From NCBI RefSeq assembly GCF_009730915.1, contig NC_052486.1, forward strand, positions 21,791,589-21,855,588: a stretch of 64,000 nt of DNA. The letters run 5' to 3'. Numbering within the stretch: position 1 is the stretch's first letter; every line of letters begins with the position of its first letter. Position numbers and translations under genes: made by a program. Positions 1,945 to 61,310 of this stretch are shown here, one piece after another. Under the pieces are notes generated by a model that saw only the letters and a program-made list of their open reading frames with translations, was not told the origin of the DNA and ran no database searches. This DNA is from Dioscorea cayenensis subsp. rotundata. Its lineage: Eukaryota > Streptophyta > Magnoliopsida > Dioscoreales > Dioscoreaceae.

Positions 1945-2960
1945 GGCATTGTTGGGATCACAAGATGTTTGGGATATAGTTGAGAAGGGCTATGAGCAGC
2001 CTGCAAATGAAGAAAGATTGACAGCTGCTCAAAAGGATGCACTTCAGAAGGCTAAAAAAGAAAGATCAGCAAGCGCTTACCCTCATTCATATGTGTTTAG
2101 ATAAGGGTATGTTTGAAAAAGTTGCTTCAACAACAAGTGCAAAAGATGCATGGGAGATCCTACAAAATTCCTTCAGAGGGAAAGATAAGGTGATTAAAAT
2201 ACGGCTGCAAGCTTTGAGGGGTGACTATGAATCTCTTAAAATGAAGGAGTCAGAAACAATTGAAGAATATATCAATAGTGTCCTGGCAGTTGTCAACCAA
2301 TTAAAAAGGTATGGAGAGACTATACAAGATGTTCAAGTGGTTGAAAAGATTTTTCGCTCACTGTAAAATTTGATTATATAGTGACAGCTATTGAAGAATC
2401 CAAAGATTTGGATTCAATGACTGTAGACCAATTGTTGGGTTCTTTACAAGCACGTGAAGAAAGACTGAAGAAAAGAGAAGATACTGTTGTTTATGCTCTA
2501 CAAGCAAATCTAAATTTGAGAGAAAAGGGGGACTCACAACAACAATTTCCTGAAGGTCGTGGTGGAGGACGAGGAAGAACAAGAGGTCAAGGTTGATTTT
2601 CATGGCAGTCGTGGAAGAGGCAGAACCTGCAGAACATTCTCTAATGATGAAGAGTCAAGTGTTAGGCATCAAAACTTTAGAGGAAGAGGCAAAGGTGGTT
2701 GGTTGCAAGGTGGTCGTGGGCGTGGTAGATACACCAATGTAAAGTGCTATAATTGTCAGAAATTTGGTCACATCGCAGCAAATTGTTGGTTCAAGACAAA
2801 CACGGATGACAAAGCAAATTATGTGGAGGTTGAGGAAAATGAAGAGTCAACCTTATTATTAACTTGCAATGGAGAAGAAGAAATACAAAGTTTTGGTACC
2901 TTGATTCGGGAGCCAGTAATCATATGACTGATAATAAACACTTATTTTGTAGCCTTGATG
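1945..2960 (+). pseudogene. Copia gag and start of protease, broken frame
   Basis: The frame pieces show a Copia-type gag: the N-terminal region near 1945-2050, the main UBN2-like gag helical region at 2050-2360, an Arg/Gly-rich stretch, then a CCHC zinc knuckle (CX2CX4HX4C) at 2745-2786. The aspartic protease motif DSGAS follows at 2903-2917. The frame changes near 2050, near 2365 and again before the knuckle, so no continuous polyprotein can be read. The protease is cut off soon after its active site. Confidence 0.85.
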
Positions 2961-3117
2961 AGAGTGTTAAAGGTAGCATCTCTTTTTGGTGATAAGACCA
3001 AAGTGCCAGTTATGGGCAAAGGTGATATTCTTATTAGATAAAAAAAATGGTGATCATCAATTCATCTCTCAAGCTTATTATGTTCCAGCTTTAAAAACAA
3101 ATATTTTGAGTATTGGA

Positions 3118-3357
3118 GAAACAGATGTTTTTGTGGATAATATATCTGCTATCGCTCTGGGTAAAAATCCAATTTTTCATGAAAGAAGCAAGCATATTGA
3201 CACTAAATATCATTTCATAAGAGAATGTGTTGGTAAGAAAGAGATCCAACTGAAGTATGTGCAATCCAAAGAGCAGGTAGCTGATTTGTATACAAAAGCC
3301 TTAAAGTTTGAAGATTTCTGCAGGATGAGAACCTGCCTCGGTGTAGTGAAAGGCTAA
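3118..3357 (+). pseudogene. Copia RNase H C-terminal remnant
   Basis: The reading frame resumes with a VDNISAIAL block, then a conserved HIDTKYHFIRE block and a QVADLYTKAL block, which are the last part of Copia RNase H. The join to the truncated protease region is near 3118, so integrase and reverse transcriptase are lost in one deletion of roughly 2-3 kb relative to a typical Copia element. The frame stays open to a stop at 3355-3357, just before the 3' LTR. Confidence 0.88.
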
Positions 3358-4232: not shown

Positions 4233-7010
4233 TTTTTTTTTTGAATAAATGGATAAACCATGAATTTATTGAAAAAGGCAAGTACAACATACTAACAAAT
4301 AAGCAAAGAACAAAGAAACATAACCAACCAAGTTTTCAAGAGTTCTCACCAGTAGTGATGCACCACCTAAACCTTACAATAGTAAATAGAGATACAAAGC
4401 AAGCAACAAAAGGAAAAAGACACAATTGAAAATACGGTTATTTCTTTCAAGCCAGATTTTCCAACATATAGCTTTAGTAATCAAACCCCACAGAATGTGA
4501 TGTTGGGTATCTAAGGACAGGATCCAAGATCTCTAGACCTCTGTTATTGATGCATCCCTATAAAGTAAATTAAAGGATTGCTAAAAAAACCAAAATTCTA
4601 TATGAGAATTCACAGCTGAGCAAAAGGTGATCTACTGTCTCAGAACTTTTATGACAGAGGACACAGATATTTGAGGTGTTTTGGGATTACATCCTCTTTT
4701 GGCTAAATTAACAAGAGTAAGAATTCTATCATCACTTGTTAACCAGCAAAAGAGAGAGATTTTATAGGGGCAGTCAGTTTTCCAAAACTGTGAATAAAGG
4801 CCACTCCGTAAACCACCATCTATTAGGAATTTATAAAAGGAATGGACCAAGAAGGTTTCGTTCGCCTCCAAATTCCAAATATTTAAGTCCTCCTGATTAC
4901 TAGCACAATCTGGGATGGAGGTAAAGAAAGACAGACTTTTCGAAGGTCAAGCGGAACGGAAGAAGCTTTCATGTGAAATTAGACCATGGATGAATTGTCT
5001 AATTGTAATCCAAGGGAAATTACAATCATTAAAGAGATACGGCCAAATATCTTTGGGTGCCCGACCTTCTAGCCAATTATCATGCCAAAGCAAGGTGGAG
5101 CCACCATATTTAACTCCCTTAGAGGAACAAAGTCTAAAAGGAAGTAGTATTGAAAAACCCCTTCCCAGAAGAAAGATTTGTTTCTAGGTGGAGGAAGAAA
5201 CAAAGGCCCTGGAGAACCTCCAGGAAACTAGTTAGCGTGTAAGATTTTAAACCAACAACCTTGTTTGCTGGAAAAAAATTTCCACACCACTTACCAAGAA
5301 GTGCTGTGTTGAATTCATGCAAATATAGGATTTCCCAACCTTCCATGTTCCGTGGTCTGCAAATTCTTTGCCAAGCTATTAGGCGAAGACCCTTCGAGTC
5401 AATCTCCGGTCCTTTCCAGAGAAAATCTCTGTGAAATCTATCTATCTCTTTAATTACCCATGATGGTAGACGGAAGACAGACATTCAGTAAGTTGGGATC
5501 GAGGATAGGACAGAGTTGAGTAAAGTGAGACGGCCCCCAAGAGATAAATAGTTGGCTTTCCATGAAGCGGCTTGGAACGAATCAAAAGAATCAATTTCAT
5601 CCAATCTTGCCTCCTTGGACGTCTCCCAGAAAATGGGACCTCAAGGTAAGTAAGAGGAAAACAATCCCTATTACAATTTAGGATTGTAGTAGAGGACACA
5701 TTTGGTTGAAAACCATAATTAGTGGAATAAAGATAGCTTTTTGAGAAATTAATGGTAAGCCCAAAGGCACCTTCAAAGAGATAAAGAACAAGTTTATAAT
5801 TCGAAGATCATCCTGTCCAACAATGGTAAATATGATAAGATCATCCTCATATTAGGTGACAAAGATTCTCTAAAGGACAAATTGGAACTCCAAGAAGAAC
5901 TCTGGAATGAAGAGCATGCCAAAACATCGAACTCAATGTGTTTGCTACTAAGGCAAACAGGAAAAGTGAAAGGGGGTCTCCCTGTCTAAGGCCTTGTTTG
6001 CAACAAATATAACCATGTAGTTCCCCATTAATGAGAACTCTAGCCTTAGCAGATTTGAGAATGTTAAAAATCCAGGTCAACCAACGAAGTCCAAAATCCC
6101 TGATGGAAAGGATCTCAAGGAAAAAAATTCCAATCAAGCGAATCAAAAGCTTTCGCAAAATCTACTTTGAAAGCATAACCAAGGAGCTTCCTTTTTTGAA
6201 GATTAAAAATCGCTTCTTGGCTTGTGATTATATTATCATCTATGCATCTACTCTTGATGAAAGCCGATTGAGAATCATCTACTAGAAAATCAATTACCCA
6301 ACTTAATCTATTCGTAAGAAGTTTTGAGATGATCTTACAGGTAGAATTAATAAGACTGATCGGTCGGTAATCATTGATGCTTTCTGGAGAAGCCTTTTTG
6401 GCAATGAGAGCAATATTGACCCAGTTTAAATGTTCCAGATTGGCCCTACCTTCAAAGAAATCATTACAAAGTTTGACACATGTATCCTGAACCAGAGACC
6501 AGTGTTTCTGAAAGAAGAACATTGGGAATCCATCTGGTCCTGGGGCTTTATCTGCTCCCAAGTCAAACACTATTTTTTAATTTCCTCAATTGAAAAGGGT
6601 CTTTCTAAATCCGAAAGATCAAGTATTTCTTTATGTGAGAATAGATTGTGCCAGTCTAGGTGAAATCTGAAGGGGTGTGAAGTGCTCTGAGAAAGTCTCT
6701 GTTAGGTTTTGATTTCCATCAATCCAAGCCCCATTATGGAAGATATGTGGAATAAAGTTTTTATTTCTCCTACCATAAGCAACCAAATGGAAATACTTTA
6801 TATTAGAGTCACCCACTCTAAGCTAGCTGATTTTGGATCTTTGCTTCCAATATAGTTCTTCCTGCCGGAGAATGGAGGAAAGATCCAATCTAATTTGAGA
6901 ATTTCTAAGGGATTTCTCAAAAGAGAGAGGTTTGCTTTCACTAATGGAGTCGAGGGAATTTAACCCTAAGAGAAAGAGAAATTTTTTGAATCTTTATGGA
7001 TCCAAATGTT
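4233..7010 (-). mobile_element. L1-type LINE retrotransposon, 5'-truncated and decayed
   Basis: The minus strand shows a plant LINE reverse transcriptase in several frame pieces. In order from the right these are a pre-RT region (6631-6980), the APGPDGF block, the NDYRPISL block and the FAKAFDS block (6115-6570), the LRQGDPLS block (5847-6158), a YADD-box relic reading YEDD at 5840-5851 in another frame, and a zf-RVT-like C-terminal region (4632-4871). A T-run at 4233-4242 is the poly(A) tail seen from the plus strand. The endonuclease domain is missing at the 5' end. Several stops and frame changes show it is dead. Target duplications are not clear to me. Confidence 0.9.
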
Positions 7011-7230
7011 TAGAAAGAGAGATGTATAATTTAATTTAGAATTTTACATGTCAGTTTATTTTTTTAAATTGTTTAGTAAAATAAATAAACCACGGATTAG
7101 CAGTACTATGAATAAAAGTACAAATACAACCACAACTTTTAATAAATTTATAGTCCACTTTTTCTTTTCTTTTTTTTAAAATCAACCTTTATAATTATAA
7201 TTATGAGCATGGAATATATATATATATATA

Positions 7231-7660
7231 TAACTTTTTCCCATATATACAGCATTTATTTAGTAACAGTATACTGATTCATTTACTACTAAAATCTCCA
7301 GTATAATATGATATGATATGTATATATATATAAAGCTTTTTCCCATAATATACAGCATTTATTTAGTAACAGTATATATATCTGATTCATTTACTACTAA
7401 AATCTCCAGTATAATATGATATGATATGTATATATATATCCATAAAGCTTTTTCCCATAATATACAGCTTTTATTTATAAGTAACAATATATATATATAT
7501 GATTCATTTACTACTAAAATCTCCGGCATAATATAATATAATATGATATGATATGATATATATATGAAAGCTATTTCCCATAATATAAAGCATTTATTTA
7601 GTAACAGCAAACATATCGGATTCATTTACTACTAAAATCTCCAATATTATATGATATATA
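7231..7660. repeat. Four tandem copies of a ~105-125 bp AT-rich unit
   Basis: Each unit contains a TTTCCCATA..ATA.AGC block, an ATTTATTTAGTAACA block, a GATTCATTTACTACTAAAATC block and then a variable (ATATG)n or (TA)n stretch. Copies begin near 7231, 7333, 7442 and 7567. Unit length varies mostly in the (TA) and (ATATG) parts. The array lies just beyond the 3' end of the PMEI gene. Confidence 0.9.
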
Positions 7661-7715: not shown

Positions 7716-8264
7716 CTAATTAGCGAGGTCAAGGATGGCAAGAGCCATGGAAGAAAGCTCAACGGAGTCATTATTCCCTTGTGTCAACGGCGACGCCGTT
7801 CCGGCCTGGCCAAACGCCGCCTCGCAGTTCTGGGCCGCCCCTATCGCCGTATTCAACAACCCTTTTGCATTATCATCTTGCATACCATTAATGGCGTCCA
7901 CAGCCTGAGCCAACGTGTTCAGCATGGACGTGTACAAACTCATGCACTGGTCCAAACCGGACTTGGTCGGCGGGTCCGGTGAGTTGCCGAGAAGGTTGTT
8001 GATGTTGTCCTTGACGTTGTAGGCTTGGTTGACGGAGGTGAGGGCGGCGATGCTGGCAAGGCCGCGGGTGTCGACGGAGCCGCTCTTTGGGTTGCGTAGG
8101 AAGGTGGAGACGCAGAAGTCATAGTTGATGACTGGGTTGGCTGCCGCTGCTGATTTGCATGTGTCTTGGATGTTGGCTTGGGCGCTGGCGAGATGGGCGG
8201 TGAGGAAGAGGAGGAGAAGTGAAAGGAGTGTGGCTGAGATCATGGTGGTGGTGGAGTGCTTCAT
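7716..8264 (-). CDS. Pectin methylesterase/invertase inhibitor domain protein (PMEI, Pla a 1-like)
   Basis: One uninterrupted exon encodes 182 residues. Residues 1-29 form a secretion signal with a leucine-rich core, and the mature part starts near A30. The four cysteines typical of the family are at 36, 51, 107 and 147, within the conserved contexts DTCKS, YDFCVS, LDQCMS and QNCEAA, so the two disulfides of the four-helix bundle can form. The sequence resembles the putative invertase inhibitors (Pla a 1 group) more than typical PMEIs. Such proteins act in the cell wall or vacuole and bind invertase or pectin methylesterase one-to-one; which target applies here cannot be read from sequence. 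The first ATG follows a TATA tract by about 55 bases. A broken paralogue lies at 1021-1120. Confidence 0.9.
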   Translation of the reverse strand: MKHSTTTMISATLLSLLLLFLTAHLASAQANIQDTCKSAAAANPVINYDFCVSTFLRNPKSGSVDTRGLASIAALTSVNQAYNVKDNINNLLGNSPDPPTKSGLDQCMSLYTSMLNTLAQAVDAINGMQDDNAKGLLNTAIGAAQNCEAAFGQAGTASPLTQGNNDSVELSSMALAILDLAN

Positions 8265-8310
8265 GGTTTTTATAGAGTAAGGGTTTTGTGGAGAGATGAG
8301 GACAAGTGGG

Positions 8311-8338
8311 TGCTTTATATATATATATATATATATAC
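8311..8338 (-). promoter_or_regulatory. TATA region of the PMEI gene
   Basis: A (TA)n run ending in TATAAAGCA on the minus strand lies about 50 bases before the PMEI start codon, a usable TATA position. Part of it is a simple repeat, so its exact function is a guess. Confidence 0.45.
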
Positions 8339-8344
8339 ATACAT

Positions 8345-8540
8345 ATATATATTTATGAGGATCATATTAAATCTTTTATAAGATTATGAGGGATGTAGTC
8401 TAATTAAAGATTGTTTAATGGGTGATTATATATATATGTATATATTTATGAGGATCGTAGTAAATCTTTTATAAGATTATGAGGGATGTAGTTTAATTAA
8501 GAATTGTTTAATTGGTGATTATATATATATATATATATGG
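8345..8540. repeat. Two tandem copies of a ~97-bp unit upstream of PMEI
   Basis: Copy one (about 8345-8438) and copy two (about 8441-8538) share a TTTATGAGGATC block, the block AAATCTTTTATAAGATTATG, a GAGGGATGTAGT block and a GGTGATTATATATA end with few differences. The duplication starts next to the TATA region of the PMEI gene. Confidence 0.88.
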
Positions 8541-11300: not shown

Positions 11301-12836
11301 TCTTAAGTACGGCAATCATATTTAACACTTTGAAAATAAAATGAGAATTAAATTGAATTACAAAGACAAAGATATGATTCTAATACTAAACATTAAAATC
11401 ACATGGTGCAACTTGATATCACGTGCCCGAAGTCTAACCACGCATAAAGCACCCAAGTTTTACTTGGGCTTTTGAATTTGTTGTTGTTGTCATCATCCTT
11501 CAGGAATAGTTAATTACTTAATTAGGTGTATGTAATCTGAACCACATCCATATATACATATTTGATGCTTAATAATGATGAAATATTTTTCTTGTTAATT
11601 AATTAGATGCCAATTTAATGATAATTAAGTAATGTAATTAACTTAGAGTCTCAAACAACAACTTTGATTTTAACTAGGCATTTTCTGAGATTTTAAAAAT
11701 TTTATGAGGAGTTTTGAGGCAATATCATATATAAAATAATATAATTAAACAACTTCTACTATATAAACTATTTTATACCTTGGATTTCAAAGGTCTTATG
11801 GACATTTATTACATAAATAATTATGTGTAATTAATGTTTTTCAATTAAAGAAATATTATAAGTAATATAAATAAAAACTTAAATATTATTAAAAAAAATT
11901 TAAAAATTGTTTCTTAAAACGCTCTCGGAGTAGATTATACATCTACTTTAATAATATGTATAGATTAAGAAAATGATGATGATAATGGCCAATTGGGATA
12001 GGTCCTTCAATAATATGTCAATACTTGCCCTATGTTTGTGTTGTTCTTTTTAGAAAATTTGTGTTATCCTCGTCACTCACGCGCTTAATTAACTTTGGAA
12101 CGCGATTATATATGTCCCCACATGACTTCACTTTGTCTTTCACACTCTCTTTGCTCTATACTTCTATAGTTCTATATGACAATGGGGGCCTTAAATAAAA
12201 ATTGTGCATATATTTTTAATTAAAATGAGAACTTAATCAACTTACGCACAATGATAAAAAATGAGTATTGTTTTGGTTGTTAAAAAAAAGGATTATTGAG
12301 GTTTGACAAAATGAAAAGTATGATCATGTGGGGTTCTTTATGAAAAAATAAATAAATCATGTGGAGTTAAAAAGGAAGATACATATATATATATATATAA
12401 TATATATGTTTGATAATGATCTCTTCATTAACCTGTGGGATCTACCCTACATAACCATGCACATCAAGTCATCTACCAACACATTATCATCAATATTTAT
12501 CATCATATCAATTTCCCAAATTAAAAAAAAAAACTTAATTATATATCATTCACACGTACAATATATGTAGTTGTTTCAAATTAACAAACAAAATACTACC
12601 AGTACTCAAGAACACATAAACCAGAGCATTTATCTCCATCTCTCTCCGGCTATCAACATTTCGGACTCCACTTCGGCGAACCAAACACAAGGAAGTCGTT
12701 GGGAACTCTCCGGTTCAGTCACTTCGGCCTCTACTTCTGCGAACCAAACACGCCCTATATATATATATGTTCACTGCTGTTACATACATATTTATTAATT
12801 ATTTAGTGTTCTACTACATATATTTTCTACCACACG
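11301..12836. other. AT-rich intergenic stretch
   Basis: It holds short (TA)n runs and homopolymers. Near 12655-12755 a short block (ACTTCGGC..CTACTTC.GCGAACCAAACAC) occurs twice about 60 bases apart. No gene is seen. Confidence 0.6.
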
Positions 12837-13894
12837 TCACTCAGCTGCATGAAAATGTCCAGAATGTTGTGTTCCGGATTTGGAGTTGTTGGATCGAGTT
12901 GGTTCAAGAGTGAGCATGATGTTGTTGTTGATCTTTTTCTTGTCTTTGAGGTAGCGAATACCGCAAGCATTGCAGAGAGTCTGCAAGGTACAATACATAG
13001 AAGCATCAAAGAACTGGGAATACATATCAATATTAATTATGTGAACGTAGTACATTCACTATTTGTGGCAAGTGATGAGAAGGCCCAATAAATAGATAAA
13101 TAAATTAAACCTGCCTGCAGAGGACTCCAAAGTTTGAGAGCTTGTTGCTCATTATGCATGGTCCTCAAAAATGGAATTAACCTCATTTGCGGAAAATTAA
13201 GATTGAAGGTAGATCAGGTAATAATTAATATTATGACCAAACCTTTTAATTAAAGTCTTCATTTGTCTGAAACTCTTCTTGAATTAACGGATCTTCTCTT
13301 TTTCTTGAGTTTTTTTATTAATCTCGTGAAGCAAAAAGGGAAGAGTTGTCGTCTTAGATGTGTCAACCAGCTTGATCCAAGGATCAACAAGATGCAGGTA
13401 TTTGGTGAAGAAGAAGAAGAAGAAGAGAAGCTCATTGGTGCACATAGATTTTATGGTAATTACAAATGGTCTATGTTTGCAAGACTATTTCCTGGTAGAA
13501 CTGATAATGAAGTCAATAATCATTGGCATGTTATCAAGGCCATGATGTACGTACAAGATTGCATTCAGTAAAGACGAAGAAGAAGAAGAAGAAGAAGAAG
13601 AAGAAGAAGAAGAAGAGGAGGAGAAGCTCATGGCTGCAAAACAACAACAACAACAAGAGGAGGAGAAGCGGCTGCAGTAGCAGCAGCAACAACAACAACT
13701 GGAGGAGGAGAAGAAGAAGCAGCAGCAACAACAACAAGAGGAGGAGAAGCAGCAGAAGCAGCAGCAACAACAAGAGGAGGAGAAGCAGAAGCAGCAGCAA
13801 CAACAAGAGGAGGAGAAGCAGCAGCAGCAACAACAACAAGAGGAGGTGAAGCAGCATCAGTAGCAGCAGCAACAACAACAACAAGAAGAGGAGA

Positions 13895-13925
<31 letters not shown>

Positions 13926-14764
13926 ACAACAACAAGAGGAGGTGAAGCAGCAGCAGTAGCAGCAACAACAACAACAAGAGGAGGAGAAGCAGAATTAAGC
14001 AACAACAACAAGAGGAGAAGCAGCAGCAGCAACAACAACAACAAGAGGAGAAGCAGCAGCAGTAGCAGCAACAACAACAACAAGAGGAGGAGAAGCAGCA
14101 GCAGTAGCAGCAACAACAACAACAAGAGGAGGAGAAGCAGCAGCAGTAGCAGCAGCAGCAACAACAACAACAACAAGAGGAGGTGAAGCAACAGCAGTAG
14201 CAGCAACAACAACAAGAGGAGGTGAAGCAACAGCAGTAGCAGCAACAACAACAACAAGAGGAGGAGAAGCAGCAGCAGTAGCAGCAACAACAACAACAAC
14301 AGCAAGAGGAGGAGAAGCAGCAACAGCAGCAGCAGCAACAACAACAACAACAAGAGGAGAAGCAGCAGCAGTAGCAGCAGCAGCAACAACAACAAGAGGG
14401 AGGAGAAGCTCATATATGATTGCATGACACTTTTAGCTCGTAAAACTGACAATGCAATCAAGAACCATCATTGGTAAGTTATCACGACCAGGAAGTGCAG
14501 AGAACAATCCAGTTTCTCACTGGAAGAAACACCAAATGCTAATCATGCATAACCAGTGACTGACAATGGAAACATGTATATGATGAAGGTGATGATGACG
14601 ATGATGCATGGGAGATCGTGATATATCTATCTATCTACCTGAGGTCCTCTAGGTCCAGTCCGCCAGCGAGGAGTTTGAATGGCATGGCATAAGTTGCACT
14701 CCTTCACAGTCATACCACTTATGAAGTCCTTCTCCACCAACTGCTCAAGAGGCTGCTGCTCCAT
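12837..14764 (-). CDS. Small GATA-type zinc-finger transcription factor, two exons
   Basis: Exon 1 is 14639-14764 (ATG at 14764) and exon 2 is 12837-12980. Splice sites are CAG|GTAGAT and TTGCAG|ACT, both in phase 0. The joined 89-residue protein has one plant GATA finger, C23-x2-C26-x18-C45-x2-C48, with the intron between the two cysteine pairs, a position shared by many plant GATA genes. The core has WRTGP and TLCNACGIRY; TPRWR replaces the more usual TPLWR or TPQWR. A Lys-rich stretch follows the finger and the C-terminal tail is short. It should bind GATA sites in DNA in the nucleus. The 1658-bp intron holds antisense MYB debris and a long triplet repeat, which may impair splicing. Expression is not proven. 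Confidence 0.75.
13108..13555 (+). pseudogene. R2R3-MYB fragment A (end of R2 and R3), inside the GATA intron
   Basis: The plus strand shows R2 relics at 13108-13200 (LPAEDSK, then ELVAHY, then GPQKWN in another frame, with stops), a short intron, and an open piece at 13320-13555. That piece carries GKSCRLRCVNQLDPRINK and then an R3-like repeat with GEEEEEEEKLIGAHRFYG and ARLFPGRTDNEVNNHWHVI. This is the MYB52/54/56/105/117 kind of R2R3-MYB. Damage includes a Cys in place of the last R2 tryptophan, an extra Tyr in GNYKW, stops in R2 and no C-terminal region. It retains the intron, so it is a genomic duplicate. It is antisense to the GATA gene and lies wholly in its intron. Confidence 0.82.
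13571..14405 (+). repeat. ~830-bp triplet-phase minisatellite (CAA/CAG + GAGGAGGAGAAG)
   Basis: A pure GAA run is followed by about 20 units, each a GAG-GAG-GAG-AAG block and a variable run of CAG and CAA triplets, often with one TAG from CAG. Unit lengths differ almost only by multiples of three, so one frame is kept throughout (Q-runs alternating with E-E-E-K). The array is bounded on the left by GAGGAGGAGAAGCTCATGGCTGC (split: EEEKLMAA when translated) and on the right by a near-identical GAGGAGAAGCTCAT, both matching the Glu-rich start of MYB R3. Very long leucine-rich open frames on the minus strand here are artefacts of the repeat. Confidence 0.92.
14396..14552 (+). pseudogene. R2R3-MYB fragment B (end of R3), right of the minisatellite
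   Basis: After the repeat the frame reads EEEKLI, then LLAR, KTDNAIKNHHW and, after a stop, RKCREQSSFSLEETPNANHA followed by TAA at 14550-14552. This is the second half of an R3 repeat and the usual start of the tail in MYB52/56-type proteins. The matching left part (poly-Glu then KLMAAK) is at 13575-13645, so fragment B is one R3 repeat pulled apart by the triplet array. An extra G in GAGGGAGGAG shifts the frame at the right edge. Confidence 0.75.
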
Positions 14765-14789
14765 CTTCCTCTTTCTCTCCCTCTTTCTC

Positions 14790-16018
14790 TTTCCTTAAGC
14801 TTGTTATTTATGTGTGTGTGTGTGTCTGTCTATCTATCGGTGGAGAATCTGGAGATTCTTAGGCAAGTATTTATGGAGTGGTTAAATAATTATATGGCTC
14901 TTTTTCTCGTGACGAAAGAATTGCGCCACCACTAACATATTGTCTGTTTCGTGCACGTGGTTCGTTTTTACTGGTGATAATTAGTCGCTTGATAGAAACC
15001 TGGACAATAGGCCAAAATCAAGTTGTTTGACAAGTTGTTCTACATTTCGAGGTCTCAGATGTCGGCTTTGTTTTTTTAAATATTGCTTTTATTATTATTA
15101 TTAATTACTAAAATAGATATTTTTATGACCGTTGACTCTATCTACTCATTGATCAATTGGCTTGCTCCCTCCCTCTTTTTTTTCCAAGAATGAGCCAGCC
15201 GCTCGGAAAAACCTTTATCTAGGTATTTTTATTTTTTTAATATTAAATTTTAGTTTTTTTAATAGTTGTGATTACACAAGTTTTTTTATATTCAAATTTT
15301 ATTTTTTTTTAAAAAATGGGAGGTTTTACTAGTTTTTTAATATTAAAATTTATTTTTTAAAAAACTGTGATAGATCGATCCTACTAGTTTTTTTTTAAAT
15401 TAAAAATAATTTTACACTAAAATTTTTATAATTTCATAAAAAAATTTTATAGTTTTATTCTCACATCTATTTTCACTAATTCTAACAAATTATTAATAAT
15501 TTAAATAATGTTAATATTTTCATAATAATAAATTATTAAACATTTAAAAATTACTCCCACAACTAAAATAAACTCACTTGATATTTTAAATAAATGAAAA
15601 TAATTGCATATATTATAAAATGATTCAACAAGTTCAATATTTAAATTATAAAATAAACTTACTCGATGAAAACATTGTCCTCTCCTCACTTATAGCGATT
15701 GAACCATTATAATAAATCAAAATAAGTGATTTTTTTGTCATTGTAGAAAATAAAAAAAAAATGTGAGGGTAATTTTTAGAAATATAGTACTCTCGACTAT
15801 TCAGTTAATTTGAGAAATAAAATACTAACTAATAAATAGTAAGGGTAATTTTTAGAAATATAGCAAATTATATAGTAGATTCAAATCATCAAGTTGGGAA
15901 ATATATATATATATATATATACCAACAACTCCCAGTGGTGGTGCCATAGATAAATTACATAAATCCATAGAAAATAACTGAAGTAATGGTGGAGATTAAG
16001 GTGCTCTCTTTGTGATCC

Positions 16019-60551: not shown

Positions 60552-60629
60552 TGATGCGAGTGATGAGAGCTCGAAGAGAAGAAGAAGAAGATGAAGAAGC
60601 TTATCCGTTTCGAAAAGCACTGGTTCTCT

Positions 60630-61310
60630 GTTAACCGTTTCCCTTTTCGTTTCCCATTGAGTTATGCGTTTCCCTTTTTTTGTTTTTTTTTTCTTAATGA
60701 AAAAATTAATAAGAAAATTTTATAATTAGTTAAAAATATTTAGAAGGTAGGAAATTTTATGATTTTATTTATTATTGAATATTTTTCCTTTTTCGTATCC
60801 TATTGAGCTATGTGTTTCCCATTTATATGCTTTTTTTCTTAATGAAAAATTAATAAGAAAATTCTAAAATTAATTAAAAATAGGTATTTAGAAGGTTAAA
60901 AATTGTATGATTTTATTTATTATTGAATATTTGCTTGTTAACCATTTCCCTTTTCGTTTCCCATTGAGTTATGCGGATCCCTTTTTTTTCTTAATGAAAA
61001 AATTAATAAGAAAATTTTAAAATTAATTAAAAATATTTAAAAGGTTGGAAATTTTATGATTTTATTTATTATTGAGTATTTGTTTGTTAACCGGTTCCTT
61101 TTGTGCGTATCCCATTGAGTTATGCGTTTCCTTTTATGTTTTTTTTAATGAAAAAATTAATAAGAAAATTCTAAAATTAATTAAAAATATTTAGAAGGTT
61201 AGAAATTTTATGATTTTATTTATTATTGAGTATTTTTTTTCTTGTGTGATAAATGCGTATCATTTGAAATTTTAAAATAAATTAAAAATATTTAGGAGGT
61301 TATAAAGAAA
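60630..61310. repeat. ~150-bp tandem repeat, four copies and a partial fifth
   Basis: Copies begin near 60630, 60783, 60937 and 61086, with a degenerate part to about 61310. Each has GTTAACCGTTTCCCTTTTCG or a variant, CCCATTGAGTTATGCGT, AATGAAAAAATTAATAAGAA, AATTAAAAATATTTAGAAGG and ATTTTATTTATTATTGA. The first copy starts about 80 bases before the PCD-like start codon, so the array forms its upstream region. Confidence 0.92.

Follow-up and report, generated by a model that had tools for sequence, protein, structure and literature searches.

A minisatellite probably born in an R2R3-MYB relic within the predicted intron of a GATA gene

Within the window, by which we mean the whole 64,000-nucleotide stretch of DNA that was analysed, a minisatellite sits inside the remains of an R2R3-MYB gene, and the remains and the array together seem to lie antisense within the intron of a GATA gene predicted on the minus strand. 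We consider it likely that the array is a neutral intronic minisatellite that was born in a MYB pseudogene, with events in the order proposed below. The following features carry this reading.

13114..13217, plus strand: decayed R2 exon (PAEDSKV*ELVAHY ... GPQKWN ... GRSG), with stops and frame changes, located by tblastn
13218..13338, plus strand: retained MYB intron of 121 bp, GT...AG; the joined exon ends read GRSGKSCRLRC
13339..13560, plus strand: MYB exon 2, in which the last part of R2 is followed by copy A, a whole R3 without expansion (Glu run of 7)
13552..13638, plus strand: start of a second R3 (copy B), YKIAFSKD-E(n)-KLMAA, with (GAA)13 at 13576-13614
13615..14395, plus strand: minisatellite of 19 units, GAG GAG GAG AAG (CAG)n TAG (CAG)n (CAA)n, with TAG in 11 of the 19
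14396..14520, plus strand: partial last unit (EEEKL) that continues as the decayed tail of copy B's R3, from tblastn, DNA score and shuffles
14639..14764, minus strand: predicted GATA exon 1 (MEQQPLEQLVEKDFISGMTVKECNLCHAIQTPRWRTGPRGPQ); the spliced finger is CX2C-X18-CX2C
12981..14638, minus strand: predicted phase-0 GT-AG intron of 1658 bp, which holds the MYB relic and the array
12837..12980, minus strand: predicted GATA exon 2 (TLCNACGIRYLKDKKK... to the stop), with acceptor CTTGCAG

The first-pass annotation had described a minisatellite at this place, and TRF confirmed a tandem array there; the letters from 12400 to 15600 were also inspected directly. An AAG run was reported at 13571-13616 (period 3, 15.3 copies, 95% matches), followed by overlapping calls of period 39 at 13645-14389 (18.3 copies, 77% matches) and of period 42 at 13645-14409 (18.6 copies, 78% matches). 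When the array was cut at every GAG block, 19 whole units of 33-51 bp were obtained (numbered 0-18), with the pure (GAA)13 run, itself part of a Glu run of 16 codons, ahead of them. By TRF and by this cutting, the array consists of head-to-tail copies of a unit tens of bases long, within the range of about 10-100 bp that defines a minisatellite. Together with the partial unit at the right edge, the count agrees with the earlier figure of about 20 units. Units 0 to 9 measure 42, 45, 36, 36, 33, 33, 45, 51, 42 and 34 bp, and units 10 to 18 measure 33, 39, 42, 51, 39, 42, 48, 48 and 42 bp. As had been stated before, almost all length changes are triplets: 18 of the 19 lengths are divisible by three, and the odd one out is the unit at 13978, with 34 bp.

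The composition of the units changes along the array. Unit 0, GAGGAGGAGAAGCTCATGGCTGCAAAACAACAACAACAACAA (opening GAGGAGGAGAAGCTCATGGCTGCAAAACAA...), consists of the R3 codons EEEKLMAA and, after them, AAA and CAA codons. The string GGCTGCA is still found in unit 1, and in most later units CAG codons stand at that place, which indicates that MYB codons survived at the left edge and disappeared deeper in the array. Adjacent units resemble each other more than expected, since only 11 of 5000 permutations gave a likeness as high, and likeness drops with distance between units (r -0.24; 64 of 5000 permutations as low). Four units carry GTG, and all four are among the TAG-bearing ones. The likeness of neighbours, its decay with distance and the overlap of GTG with TAG are signs of local duplication. 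EEEKL-type codons are present at both edges of the array as had been noted, and with EEEKLMAA in unit 0 and R3 sequence on both flanks, the earlier proposal that the array was seeded from the Glu codons that open a MYB R3 is well founded.

The MYB sequence around the array was compared with stretches of Arabidopsis MYB105, MYB117 and MYB56, the one MYB subgroup used. Copy A belongs to the segment 13339-13560, which codes for the last part of R2 and for a whole R3 (GKSCRLRCVNQLDPRINKMQVFGEEEEEEEKLIGAHRFYGNYKWSMFARLFPGRTDNEVNNHWHVIKA). It has the helix-turn-helix of an R3, scoring 42.1 bits with the Pfam model Myb_DNA-binding (PF00249, cut-off 24.4), and it matched a c-Myb chain in the PDB set with a whole-sequence E of 6e-18. 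Region 13320-13583 matched the MYB105 stretch with E 2.7e-29. The R2 exon was found by tblastn with the MYB105 probe in two pieces, 13114-13155 and 13145-13225 (E 0.001 each), and with the MYB117 probe in its second piece (13145-13225, E 0.14); with the MYB56 probe no match to it was among the matches listed. These weak E-values are generous, as the low-complexity filter and the composition correction were switched off; rows in which more than half of the query part was Glu were left out. A Trp of the probes is replaced by Cys in the RLRC of the relic. We attributed four further rows (12900-13010, 14925-14764, 20581-20522 and 54335-54267; E 0.06 to 0.8) to chance, and a match of 13419-13526 to R2 in the probes (E 0.03-0.06) to the likeness of R3 to R2.

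The fragments of R2 and R3 thus align with these stretches from R2R3-MYBs of the MYB52/56/105/117 kind, a subgroup to which the relic may belong, but unlike such genes, the sequence here is interrupted by stops and frame changes and by the presence of a second R3 and the array. No intact open frame through R2 and R3 was found, as R2 contains stops and frame changes and copy B is split by the array and contains stops as well. Judged by these lesions, the MYB sequence is a relic and not a gene. Neither a start nor a C-terminal part of it was identified. An origin from spliced RNA was rejected, because the intron has been kept and the exons read GRSGKSCRLR across the junction.

The first-pass annotation had assumed that a single R3 was pulled apart by the array. 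This has to be corrected, as the complete copy A stands ahead of the array, in a different frame, and the repeat that is split is the second one, copy B. Copy B opens with YKIAFSKDEEEE...KLMAA (13552-13638) and continues after the array as MIAxLF...KTDNAIKNHHW*VITTRKCREQSS, at about 14415-14513. By tblastn, three probes recovered this R3 tail, at 14430-14513, 14442-14513 and 14442-14510 (E 7e-5 to 6e-4). At the right edge, GAAGCTCAT and TATGATTGC are separated by 1 base and the like landmarks in copy A lie 36 bases apart, so that this edge lacks about 35 bases of R3. Copies A and B may go back to a tandem duplication of about 165 bp; the string ACAAGAT, present at both parent places where the two copies abut, would fit such an event. 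Alternatively, the two copies could be fragments of separate MYB genes, with no tandem duplication.

The first-pass annotation had also overlooked the predicted GATA gene around the relic. On the minus strand, the predicted exons join ...GGACCTCAG to ACTCTCTGC..., and the result is a predicted frame of 89 amino acids with a whole CX2C-X18-CX2C finger. By itself, the exon 2 frame scores 18.5 bits with the Pfam GATA model, and the joined protein reaches 48.5 bits (cut-off 26.8); the finger is all that Pfam recognised in the spliced protein. The best match among solved structures is GATA transcription factor 18 (8j48, E 2.9e-12), which we take to be HAN, of class B. A single finger of this form is shared with plant GATA genes, and the available text of PMC4401516 gives the 18-residue loop as usual in most plant GATA factors. 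Class B GATAs are described, in the part of PMC4337238 at hand, as having either a C-terminal LLM domain or a HAN domain. An L-L-M motif is absent from the predicted 89-aa frame, and we therefore do not file the gene as an LLM-type B-GATA. In contrast to other plant GATA genes, the predicted protein is no longer than 89 amino acids and the intron of 1.66 kb holds the relic of a foreign gene. A length of 89 amino acids is short, which counts against the gene model, as does an AATAAA on the minus strand at 13319, inside the predicted intron. Another minus-strand AATAAA is found at 12796, beyond the predicted stop. No TATAAA was found on the minus strand from 15000 to 12700.

We weighed three other explanations. 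One would be that the locus is a compound microsatellite of the ordinary sort that does not truly derive from a MYB, so that EEEKL at its edges arose by chance; GAG/AAG composition indeed yields Glu and Lys codons unaided. For the right flank, the local DNA score against copy A was 53, compared with a maximum of 26 in 300 dinucleotide shuffles and of 35 in 1000 triplet shuffles. The left flank scored 52, above the maximum of 37 in 300 dinucleotide shuffles, a test in which 20 bases were shared between the left flank and the stretch of copy A and GAA runs were not preserved. In the triplet shuffles, which were run without this overlap, one of 1000 reached 52. The left edge is the weaker match because the GAA run itself carries much of the score. 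However, when the Glu run was kept and the following 18 bases were shuffled, none of 1000 reached 52 (maximum 47), and on the right about 80 bp of R3 tail extend past the edge. The shuffle controls refute chance for the right edge, and for the array as a whole we regard it as exceedingly improbable. The data support that the relation of each edge to R3 exceeds chance and that two parts of what appears to be one R3 flank the array in the right order; the R3 origin claimed earlier for the edges, against which unrelated edges would speak, is thereby upheld, more weakly on the left. Another explanation, raised in the first-pass annotation, is that the array grew in frame in a translated MYB, as a Q/E/K-rich insertion in R3 which acquired stops later. 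It would account for the triplet lengths of 18 of the 19 units, and eight units (0, 2-5, 9, 10 and 17), including the run of units 2-5, have no TAG, which leaves room for an early, small in-frame expansion before the stop. However, the TAG is already present in unit 1, and all 11 TAG codons of the array occupy the fourth codon position after AAG, where 15 of the 82 CAG-or-TAG codons lie (hypergeometric P about 1e-10). This suggests that one stop was most likely copied along as the array grew, and that growth to those 11 of 19 units took place in DNA that was no longer coding. Recurrence of TAG at a hotspot slot could in principle give the same pattern; CAG is a CHG site for DNA methylation. 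The frame of the array also differs from that of copy A, and it has a TGA upstream at 13543, a first ATG at 13630 and a TAG at 13678 after 16 codons. It had been described as broken by CAG-to-TAG changes only, but the unit at 13978 brings a frame change and a TAA at 13996, and a second frame change lies at the right edge. Moreover, an insertion at this place in R3 is expected to break the helix-turn-helix fold, and triplet steps follow from the triplet make-up of the repeat, with translation unneeded. We thus rejected growth under translation, as the stop was most likely copied together with the unit: for the greater part of the array it is probably not how growth occurred, and as a full account it is very unlikely. 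The triplet phase is most likely no relic of translation, and of the two readings offered in the first-pass annotation, the better is that the phase is a simple consequence of a triplet-based repeat.

The third explanation concerns the GATA gene. The length of the array, with its TTG, CTG and CTC/CTT tract, would tune acceptor use, intron retention or small-RNA silencing of GATA. Read in GATA sense, 13571-14395 is 77% pyrimidine, and AG occurs 4 times on the minus strand compared with 187 times on the plus strand. Within the array, two successive AGs in GATA sense are 710 nt apart, the longest such interval on either strand of the window (the next is 235). We ranked 43 AGs, from the 30th base of the intron to 60 bases past its end, with a crude acceptor score of our own that is uncalibrated, and the two best, 13698 and 13633, lie where the array is exited. 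Intronic triplet expansions are known to lower the expression of their host genes, as at IIL1 and FXN. Two Arabidopsis precedents appear in the available portion of PMC12177298: an intronic GAA/TTC triplet expansion in IIL1 of Bur-0 that affects expression (silencing), and an intronic GTT repeat in NTM1 that affects splicing (intron retention). The locus resembles IIL1, as far as that portion describes it, in having a triplet repeat in a (predicted) plant gene intron, with a (GAA)13 run, but here there are 13 pure GAA units only, and most of the array is a compound unit of 33-51 bp. TTG triplet runs on the GATA-sense strand of the array, in the predicted intron, recall NTM1, whose repeat in the same source lies close to its acceptor; the array here, in contrast, is about 600 bp (596-635) away from the predicted true acceptor. 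The scarcity of AG also follows from the letters of the repeat unit and needs no selection, and the score placed a site unrelated to the array (14519) third and the predicted true acceptor fourth. We regard an effect on GATA as unlikely, and its strongest form, in which the array of a dead MYB is a length-variable GATA splicing element whose length sets completion of the zinc finger, as quite unlikely. If true, it would mean that the relic of one transcription-factor gene tunes another, and an array altering predicted GATA splicing would join the plant cases IIL1 and NTM1. Most likely, the array does nothing beyond lengthening the GATA intron.

We return to a neutral minisatellite born in the MYB pseudogene. 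The proposed order of events was read from one sequence at a single locus. A piece of an R2R3-MYB, copied as DNA with its intron included, would have landed in plus-strand orientation inside the intron of the minus-strand GATA gene. When the ends of that intron were compared (12981-13120 with 14500-14640), the exact direct or inverted matches were 7 bp at most, and neither a target-site duplication nor a terminal repeat was found around the MYB piece. R3 would then have been duplicated in tandem, as a stretch of about 165 bp bounded on either side by ACAAGAT, to give copies A and B, and triplet slippage would have lengthened the Glu-codon runs of both. The next step may have been duplication of the segment GAG-GAG-GAG-AAG-CTC-ATG-GCT-GCA-AAA-(CAA)n within copy B, after which a TAG-bearing unit would have appeared and been spread by local duplication, in steps of one or a few units, until the array had 19 units. 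About 35 bp of R3 would have been lost at the right edge meanwhile. Slippage or unequal exchange as the process, this succession of steps and the lack of function are what we infer from the sequence, and an array of this kind would be tolerated because it is spliced out.

The locus keeps several steps of the birth of a minisatellite together, namely an unexpanded R3, a lengthened Glu run, an edge unit made of MYB codons and units that share a stop. It also illustrates that triplet phase alone is poor evidence of growth under translation, as a stop codon was here most likely amplified with the array. Such repeat growth in non-coding DNA is a known kind of event, of which this is a well-preserved but fairly ordinary example. 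Among the literature matches listed on minisatellites with pseudogenes and R2R3-MYBs, on nested MYB and GATA genes and on the birth of minisatellites, there was no locus of this kind, judged by titles and abstract openings.

The gene content of the window, with a PMEI, a RING-H2, the R2R3-MYB and a plant-like GATA, is indicative of a plant. The pectin methylesterase inhibitor is encoded by a reading frame at 7716-8366 on the minus strand (Pfam PMEI, 77.8 bits) and is adjoined by another tandem repeat at 7214-7657, for which TRF gave a 108-bp unit in four copies with 84% matches. Past the 3′ end of the predicted GATA frame, at 12640-12760, two similar stretches with ACTTCGGCGAACCAAACAC and ACTTCTGCGAACCAAACACGCCC were noticed, which to us have the look of a MITE end. 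The remains of two retroelements are present at 2520-3357 and 6115-6576; the first shows a CCHC-like motif by eye and a Pol_BBD match of 19.9 bits, below the cut-off of 27, and the second a reverse transcriptase (RVT_1, 46.4 bits, cut-off 29.6). Finally, TRF reported an A/T-rich tandem repeat with a period of 154 or 297 at 60629-61239.
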